Shown piece after piece: positions 13,031-14,538 of a DNA stretch of 64,000 bases. Positions within the stretch are counted from its first letter, which is position 1. Each line of letters begins with the position of its first letter. This DNA comes from Prochlorococcus sp. AG-347-O22 (GTDB lineage Bacteria; Cyanobacteriota; Cyanobacteriia; PCC-6307; Cyanobiaceae), in the NCBI GenBank assembly GCA_003278845.1, contig QCCX01000003.1:1-64000 (forward strand). Reading direction: 5' to 3'. The translations under genes were made by a program, and so were the position numbers. Below the pieces are notes generated by a model. That model saw only the letters and a program-made list of their open reading frames with translations. It did not search any database and was not told the origin of the DNA.

Positions 13031-13036
13031 TAGAAT
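13031..13036 (+). promoter_or_regulatory. Candidate extended -10 promoter for rpsB-tsf
   Basis: TAGAAT preceded by TGC (TTGCTAGAAT) forms an extended -10 element. Transcription would start at about 13042-13044, roughly a dozen bases before the first strand of the pseudoknot, so the whole structured leader would be transcribed. No good -35 is visible. Confidence 0.45.
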
Positions 13037-13055
13037 CGTAGAAATTAAATCCACA

Positions 13056-13119
13056 CATCTGACAGTTTCGGGTGATTTATTAATATTAATTCCCCGTCAG
13101 ATGGAGGCTAACCCGAAAC
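13056..13119 (+). promoter_or_regulatory. Pseudoknot in the rpsB leader mRNA
   Basis: Two perfect helices interleave. CATCTGAC (13056-13063) pairs with GTCAGATG (13096-13103), and GTTTCGGGT (13065-13073) pairs with ACCCGAAAC (13111-13119). The order a-b-a'-b' makes an H-type pseudoknot with connectors of 1, 22 and 7 bases. A GGAGG at 13103-13107 lies in and beside the junction, and the structure ends 11 bases before the rpsB ATG. In enterobacteria the rpsB-tsf operon is autoregulated by S2 through its leader, so a S2-responsive role is the natural inference here. Confidence 0.75.
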
Positions 13120-13130
13120 CCTTTTAAATT

Positions 13131-13835
13131 ATGGCTGTTGTATCACTATCAGAAATGATGGAAGCTGGTGCTCATTTTGGGCATCAAACTAGACGTTGGA
13201 ATCCCAAAATGTCTAAGTACATATATTGTGCGAGAAATGGAGTTCATATTATTGATCTTGTGAAAACAGCATTGTGTATGAACGATGCTTATAAATGGAC
13301 TAGAAACGCAGCAAAAAGTGGTAAACGCTTCCTGTTCGTCGGTACAAAAAAACAGGCATCAGATGTAGTAGCTCAGGAAGCCACTAGATGTGGAGCTGCA
13401 TATGTTAATCAAAGATGGCTTGGAGGGATGTTGACTAATTGGACAACAATGAAAGCCAGGATTGAAAGATTAAAGGATCTAGAAAGAATGGAAAGTAGTG
13501 GCTCAATAGCAATGAGGCCTAAAAAAGAAGCTGCAGTTTTAAGGAGAGAACTTGAAAGATTACAAAAATACTTAGGCGGACTTAAGGGCATGAGAAGATT
13601 ACCAGACGTAGTTGTTTTAGTTGATCAGAGAAGAGAAACAAATGCAGTACTAGAAGCTAGAAAATTAGATATTTCGTTAGTTTCAATGTTGGATACAAAC
13701 TGCGACCCGGATTTGTGCGAAGTCCCCATTCCATGTAACGATGATGCTGTAAGATCTGTGCAACTTATTTTAGGAAGACTTGCAGATGCTATAAATGAGG
13801 GCAGAAAGGGTTCTAATGCCGAAAGAAAAAATTAA
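13131..13835 (+). CDS. rpsB: 30S ribosomal protein S2
   Basis: The 234-residue protein is a full-length S2. It has the N-terminal [17 protein letters not shown] block, FVGTKKQA near residue 64, [13 protein letters not shown] at about 91-103, and a C-terminal [14 protein letters not shown]2 binds the back of the small subunit near the S1 site. ATG at 13131 follows the pseudoknot leader and leaves no other sensible start. It is followed by tsf after 43 bases, the common bacterial arrangement. Confidence 0.97.
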
Positions 13836-13878: not shown

Positions 13879-14538
13879 ATGGGAAACATTACAGCAAAAC
13901 TTGTAAAAGATCTTAGAGACAAGACTGGTGCAGGAATGATGGATTGCAAAAAAGCACTTAACGAAACTGATGGAAACGTTGATAAAGCCTTAGAATGGTT
14001 AAGAAAGAAAGGCATAGCTAGTGCTGAAAAGAAATCGGGAAGAGTTGCAGCTGAAGGTTCAATTGGTAGTTATATACATACTGGATCAAGAGTAGGCGTT
14101 CTACTAGAGTTAAATTGCGAAACTGATTTTGTTGCTAGAGGTGATATTTTTCAATCTCTTTTGAAGGATGTCTCGATGCAAGTAGCAGCTTGCCCAAATG
14201 TTGAGTATGTCTCAATTGAAGAAATACCAAAAGGTGTTGTGGAAAAAGAAAAGCAGATTGAAATGGGTAGAGATGATTTATCTGGAAAACCAGAACAAAT
14301 AAAAGAAAAAATAGTTGAAGGGAGAATTGCGAAAAGACTTAATGAGCTGGTTTTACTTTCTCAACCTTATATTAAAGATAGTTCTCTTACTGTCGAGGAT
14401 CTTGTTAAACAAGCAGCAGCAAAAATTGGAGAAAATATCAAAGTAAGGCGCTTTACAAGGTATACATTGGGTGAAGGTATCGAAAAAAATCAGATGGACT
14501 TTGCCGAAGAGGTTGCATCAATGCAATCAAACAAGTAA
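13879..14538 (+). CDS. tsf: Translation elongation factor Ts
   Basis: The 219-residue protein has the N-terminal UBA-like domain with [19 protein letters not shown] and the TDFV motif (82-85), which contacts EF-Tu during GDP release. The length matches cyanobacterial EF-Ts with a single core domain, shorter than the E. coli protein. It is the second gene of the rpsB-tsf operon. The next, unknown gene starts about 10 bases after its stop and may be co-transcribed. Confidence 0.96.

Follow-up and report, generated by a model that had tools for sequence, protein, structure and literature searches.

The leader upstream of rpsB in Prochlorococcus contains an RNA pseudoknot formed by two interleaved helices. 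This knot is real and is common to nearly all of the cyanobacteria that we examined: a two-helix descriptor fits 260 of 264 rpsB leaders, a figure that leans towards structure because the descriptor itself seeks pairing. We consider it very probable that the element, as the cyanobacterial rpsB motif, is an autogenous operator in the rpsB-tsf 5' UTR, with ribosomal protein S2 as the inferred ligand. The motif itself was described by Meyer et al. (2009, BMC Genomics 10:268, PMC2704228); to this our analysis adds a test across the class, the observation that neither library model of rpsB leaders detects the element at its cut-off, and a split between leaders with and without a Shine-Dalgarno (SD) sequence.

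The leader pseudoknot and its setting

In the window, the whole stretch of 64,000 nucleotides analysed here, the first helix (P1) pairs CATCTGAC with GTCAGATG over eight perfect base pairs and the second, the pseudoknot helix, pairs GTTTCGGGT with ACCCGAAAC over nine, both on the + strand (Table 1). A single base, A13064, separates their 5' strands. A sequence-only reading of this DNA had described two perfect interleaved helices with one base between the 5' strands, and that is exactly the arrangement found. The GGAGG that it had placed at the junction is likewise there, at 13103-13107, made up of the final P1 base and the junction and ending 23 nt before the rpsB ATG (13131). The two open reading frames that follow, which we take to be rpsB and tsf, lie in the order of the annotated rpsB-tsf of Escherichia coli K-12; relatives of rpsB were found in 121 of the 151 genus genomes, many of which are incomplete.

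Table 1. Features of the rpsB-tsf leader and genes, in window coordinates
Feature	Position	Strand	Remarks
TAGAAT, putative -10 box of the rpsB-tsf promoter	13031..13036	+	25 nt before P1
Unpaired CACA, conserved	13052..13055	+	abuts the 5' side of P1; class alignment; in the E. coli leader too
P1, 5' strand CATCTGAC	13056..13063	+	perfect pairing, class co-variation, genus conservation
Pseudoknot helix, 5' strand GTTTCGGGT	13065..13073	+	perfect pairing, class co-variation, genus conservation
Loop from pseudoknot 5' strand to P1 3' strand	13074..13095	+	P3 hairpin in many relatives; AT-rich and weak in the window
P1, 3' strand GTCAGATG	13096..13103	+	perfect pairing, class co-variation, genus conservation
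Junction GAGGCTA (GGAGG with G13103)	13104..13110	+	conserved motif, P1 to pseudoknot helix
Pseudoknot helix, 3' strand ACCCGAAAC	13111..13119	+	11 nt ahead of the start codon
ORF taken as rpsB, ribosomal protein S2 (uS2)	13131..13835	+	234 aa
ORF taken as tsf, elongation factor Ts	13879..14538	+	219 aa; next gene, same strand

From the -10-like box we predict that transcription starts at about 13043, which would give a leader of about 88 nt with the whole element included. A TANNNT hexamer precedes P1 in about 100 of the 110 distinct leaders of the genus, with 88 counts at 25 nt and 14 at 26 nt (counts made without a shuffle control), and a looser extended -10 pattern, picked after the sequences had been viewed, fits 105 of the 110.

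We considered whether the two helices might pair by chance. We scanned the + strand of the 64-kb window under strict limits: two perfect Watson-Crick helices, one of 8 bp or longer and the other of 9 bp or longer, 5' strands no more than 3 nt apart, and arms starting within 70 nt. The rpsB-leader site was the sole match. No qualifying helix pair arose when the 128-nt gap was shuffled with its dinucleotides preserved (0/20,000), and this result, together with the conservation in the genus, rules chance pairing out. Whole-window shuffles produced a qualifying pair somewhere in 4 of 20, and when the limits are relaxed to 6 and 7 bp, 59 pairs occur in the window compared with 23 to 52 in its shuffles; the exclusion of chance therefore depends on the position in the rpsB leader and on conservation, and not on the window-wide count alone.

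Conservation and co-variation across cyanobacteria

The genus set comprised 130 leaders for which a start codon was found, one of them shortened by a contig end, which left 129. These include duplicates (the window appears twice and several genomes are repeated), and 110 are distinct over the last 140 nt. Both helices are fully paired, with G-U allowed, in 126 of the 129 (107 of the 110 distinct leaders); the remaining three comprise two with one broken P1 pair and one with a broken outermost knot pair. The sequence-only reading had named uncompensated breakage of both helices in close relatives as evidence against its proposal. We looked for such leaders, and none of the 129 from the genus is broken in both helices.

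Within the genus, P1 has compensated changes: three distinct leaders carry CATCTGGC/GCCAGATG, and one leader each has CATCTGGC/GCCGGATG and CATCTGAT/ATCAGATG. The other P1 changes mostly result in G-U pairs. The genus knot helix is nearly invariant, with 106 of the 110 distinct leaders identical. Across the class, the substitutions comprise G-U pairs and compensated exchanges of A-U for G-C, which suggest pairing in RNA; on these grounds a DNA repeat, or a protein site on DNA, was rejected as the source of the pairing. Because the arms hardly vary, shuffling of partners is uninformative within the genus, where it cannot separate real from shuffled partners (P1, 91.1% versus 89.0%; knot equal), and it is equally so for the knot within the family.

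Beyond the genus we assembled the rpsB upstream regions of 65 Cyanobiaceae and 69 other class loci, plus L112, a locus that was chosen because the Rfam model t44 matched there and that is not an unbiased member of the class. No start codon was identified in 2 of the 266 loci (L048 and L253). The four leaders that the descriptor does not fit are L054, which is incomplete, L169, L248 and L266; in L169 and L248 both helices are present by eye (one G-U pair; an insertion ahead of the knot). L248 and L252, both from other cyanobacteria, carry an insertion between the 5' strands of the two helices.

Co-variation was analysed in a letter-anchored set and in an alignment. The letter-anchored set, which used CRCA, GGWRG and the knot core as anchors, held 246 of the 264 leaders with 95 distinct arm sets, the other 18 being dropped because their anchors failed. 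In this set the pairing of P1 is 94.3%; with shuffled partners it averages 75.1% and reaches at most 78.3% in 500 shuffles. The knot helix is 92.4% paired against a mean of 87.3% and a maximum of 89.2%, a comparison in which its four inner pairs are favoured by construction because the knot core served as an anchor. The alignment was made with MAFFT from 55 leaders chosen out of the 260 (8 from the genus, 17 from the family and 30 from the rest of the class), and the analysis based on it includes L237, L240, L242 and L247, which had been dropped from the letter-anchored set. Standard pairs make up 94.7% of its cells, a share that drops to 83.1% when partners are shuffled and to 27-51% when registers are slid, and two-sided changes occupy 122 cells compared with 33.7 in shuffles. 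Two-sided changes occur at 12 of the 17 pairs in total: at 7 of 8 pairs in P1, where 98.6% of cells are paired, and at 5 of 9 in the pseudoknot helix, where 91.5% are. Paired substitutions in aligned leaders, which the earlier reading suggested seeking, are thus present class-wide in both helices. In the knot they are confined to the outer pairs, with exchanged arms such as GTTTCGGGT/ACCCGAAAC, CTACGGGT/ACCCGTAG and TATCGGGT/ACCCGATA; three core pairs never vary, the core GGGT/ACCC is near-constant, and because it hardly varies its pairing rests on conservation. The CACA on the 5' side of P1 is often CGCA in other cyanobacteria in the leader alignment.

The loop enclosed between the knot and P1 is less uniform. 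That of the window has no stable fold alone. Counting distinct loops, 43 of 65 in the genus, 63 of 64 in the family and 62 of 67 in the rest of the class fold better than the mean of their own shuffles; the genus loops do so weakly (mean -1.06 versus -0.13 kcal/mol shuffled), and those of the family and the rest of the class more strongly. In two Cyanobiaceae loci, L181 and L184 (G391), the P3-capable loop is enlarged to 129 and 139 nt, with both helices kept.

The conservation of the second helix also bears on a transcription attenuator, in which that helix and the following CCTTTT would form an intrinsic terminator under S2 or ribosome-level control. A short T run does follow the helix in many genus leaders, but it is only about four to six long and the hairpin loop would be 37 nt. 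The leaders inspected from the family and the rest of the class mostly have no T run at this place and still keep the helix. We rejected the terminator reading on the absence of the T run from most of these relatives, and consider attenuation very improbable.

A covariance model of P1 and its surrounding letters, R1, was built from the 55 leaders, which match it by construction, the window's included. Searched up to E 10, R1 has one match in the window's genome, at the rpsB leader. At E of 0.01 or below it matches 238 of 291 class genomes, and in the genomes whose positions were compared, G107, G186, G200 and G327 among them, rpsB begins just beyond the end of the match. Among the 53 R1-negative genomes, G456 is one in which no rpsB was found either, and G391 has a leader with both helices around its 139-nt loop and an rpsB match at E 0.7. 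A second strong match, G494:C66:6700-6781 (L301; 56.5 bits), occurs in a genome with 4% contamination and is possibly a second or foreign rpsB locus. G200 has a weak second match (E 0.004) on the opposite strand of a reading frame that is presumably leuA-like. Outside the class, R1 matches one of nine rpsB loci from elsewhere in the phylum (L288 among L288-L296, 18.5 bits). P1-like arms of the form CACACGC...GCGGAGG are present in L288, L290, L292 and L293, and no pseudoknot is evident by eye in the last three.

Relation to known rpsB leaders

We compared the leader with models of known S2 leaders, as envisaged in the sequence-only reading. Among 4227 Rfam families compared with the 401-nt leader stretch, t44 (RF00127), the model of the E. 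coli tff/rpsB leader and its S2 operator, is the best, with an alignment that is full-length at 13034-13113, and its score of 26.3 bits (E 0.0017) stays below the gathering score of 44. The Rfam rpsB model, RF01815, with a gathering score of 40, does not hit this stretch even at E values as high as 10, and an Rfam scan of the whole window found no family reaching its cut-off. Neither t44 nor RF01815 exceeds its cut-off in any of 194 class genomes (0/194 each). The sole class genome of the 194 with t44 up to E 1 is G308:C117 (L112), at 35.1 bits and below the cut-off. RF01815 up to E 1 has matches in 34 of the 194; it weakly matches some rpsB leaders, and some of its matches lie away from rpsB, as in the window's genome and in G327. 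Among 14 control genomes, t44 matches E. coli and Thermotoga maritima, and RF01815 matches Caulobacter only (1/14), below its cut-off. We also scanned 20 other cyanobacterial leaders, of which 15 match neither t44 nor RF01815 up to E 1 and five (L115, L125, L203, L215 and L228) match one or the other; the only other family named in that scan, MIR408, was taken as chance. Because both cut-offs are missed, we do not assign the element to t44 or RF01815. At cut-off stringency, then, cyanobacterial leaders escape the two Rfam models, and a likely control of ribosome synthesis is left without annotation in Prochlorococcus and its relatives.

The likeness to the E. coli leader is seen in both directions. 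In a search of 99,984 bases, R1 matches the E. coli K-12 rpsB leader with 19.2 bits (E 0.0019), and the two correspond at CACACA, P1, GGAGG and AACCC; the E. coli leader itself scores 83.5 bits against t44. The window leader and t44 share the letters of CACACA, P1, GGAGGC and AAC, whereas the helix that t44 has inside P1 has no counterpart in the window leader and appears as alignment gaps.

We place the element under the rpsB motif in the sense of Meyer et al. 2009. That paper (PMC2704228) reports an rpsB motif with a pseudoknot and names Cyanobacteria as holders. It describes P2 as absent or at most 3 bp in Cyanobacteria, the pseudoknot as about five bp in which the junction pairs with an extension on the 3' side of P1, and P3 as a loop hairpin, typically of at least 4 bp. 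As in the motif so described, the window element lies upstream of rpsB and combines P1, which co-varies, with a pseudoknot between junction and 3' extension; P2 is absent, with one unpaired base in its place. Because this layout matches, the kind of element is already known. Set against that description, the pseudoknot helix of the window element has nine bp in place of five, P3 appears eroded to an AT-rich loop, and there is no SD behind the helix.

According to a review (PMC10931766), E. coli S2, aided by S1, represses rpsB-tsf through the 5' UTR by means whose details are unclear. The same source places the ribosome binding site outside the S2 operator, which leaves the step at which S2 acts uncertain for E. 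coli too. In searches of open-licence papers we recognised no S2-binding or leader-expression data for any cyanobacterium.

The sequence-only reading had proposed a leader of the S2 type and had added that such an element was little described. The proposal is strongly supported by the place of the element ahead of rpsB, by its class-wide co-variation and by the reciprocal likeness to the E. coli leader; the addition does not stand, since Meyer et al. had reported the motif and its pseudoknot in Cyanobacteria (PMC2704228). A ligand other than S2 for the operator, whether a metabolite, as for pseudoknots of the SAM-V type, or a further ribosomal protein, would draw on the use that riboswitches also make of pseudoknots near start codons (SAM-V is described in PMC2704228). 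However, R1 has its one site in the window's genome at rpsB, and the leader resembles that of E. coli, which is under S2 control; we judge such a ligand to be highly unlikely.

Shine-Dalgarno sequences and the proposed control of initiation

In the descriptor register, the junction reads GGAGG in 127 of the 129 leaders of the genus, in 58 of the 64 from the family and in 48 of the 67 from the rest of the class. It is replaced by GGTGG in 6 of the 64 family leaders and by other letters in 19 of the 67 from the rest of the class, a few of these 19 arising only because the descriptor placed P1 in another register, as in L252. The default reading of GGAGG as a Shine-Dalgarno sequence was rejected, as its end is too far from the ATG for an ordinary SD. 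Both a GGAGG junction and an SD are carried by 48 leaders. These features suggest that the motif is a conserved component of the junction and not a Shine-Dalgarno sequence.

Between the knot core and the ATG, by contrast, GGAG, AGGA or GAGG is found in all 67 of the leaders from outside Cyanobiaceae and in none of the 193 from the family, counts that reduce to 64 other class and 93 Cyanobiaceae leaders when only those distinct from the element to the ATG are taken. In the other class leaders this SD often overlaps or touches the 3' strand of the knot. As a control we inspected tsf starts, where an SD is present in 0 of 110 Cyanobiaceae loci (from the genus only, duplicates included) compared with 11 of 18 other class loci; the window's own tsf has none. 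This control weakens the idea of an SD loss specific to rpsB. Because tsf starts show a similar split, the loss is at least partly general, and that in the Cyanobiaceae rpsB leaders is probably part of a general loss, with SD presence, we infer, the older state. The use of SD sequences in cyanobacteria is the subject of PMC6847405. The split between SD-bearing and SD-less leaders over one conserved operator amounts to a natural experiment on S2 repression.

In a rival reading, the pseudoknot is a constitutive translation element that would keep an SD-less start open and protect the 5' end of the mRNA, with no S2 feedback. Indeed, none of the 193 leaders counted for Cyanobiaceae has an SD in the start region. 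However, the fold is also kept upstream of rpsB in cyanobacteria that do bear an SD, and the conserved CACA and GGAGG letters would be needless in a mere spacer. The likeness to the E. coli leader, for which S2 repression has been reported (PMC10931766), also speaks against a constitutive role, which we regard as unlikely.

Under the favoured S2 operator, S2 in excess over 30S subunits would bind the fold made of P1, junction and pseudoknot and keep it closed, perhaps together with S1 as in E. coli. The stabilised fold would cover the ribosome landing site, because the 3' strand of the knot ends 11 nt before the AUG; a stretch at this distance lies inside the footprint of the 30S subunit. Initiation by 30S would be blocked, and translation of rpsB would fall, and that of tsf along with it. 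In SD-bearing cyanobacteria the fold would hide or crowd the SD, and in Cyanobiaceae it would block docking on the SD-less start. More tentatively, and as a possibility to which we give low odds, the S2 operator of Cyanobiaceae may have outlived the SD that it once masked, the SD being lost and the nine bp of the pseudoknot helix retained. S2 would then regulate SD-independent initiation: the folded knot, perhaps with the junction GGAGG, would be a docking or standby site, and S2 (with S1) would compete at docking instead of masking an SD.

A local hairpin of CGGG with CCCG, pairing 13069-13072 with 13093-13096, would preclude the pseudoknot. When pseudoknots are disallowed in folding, the P1 fold, the knot-helix fold and the CGGG/CCCG hairpin fold lie within 0.4 kcal/mol of one another in the calculation, and the hairpin is a possible candidate for the open state of a switch.
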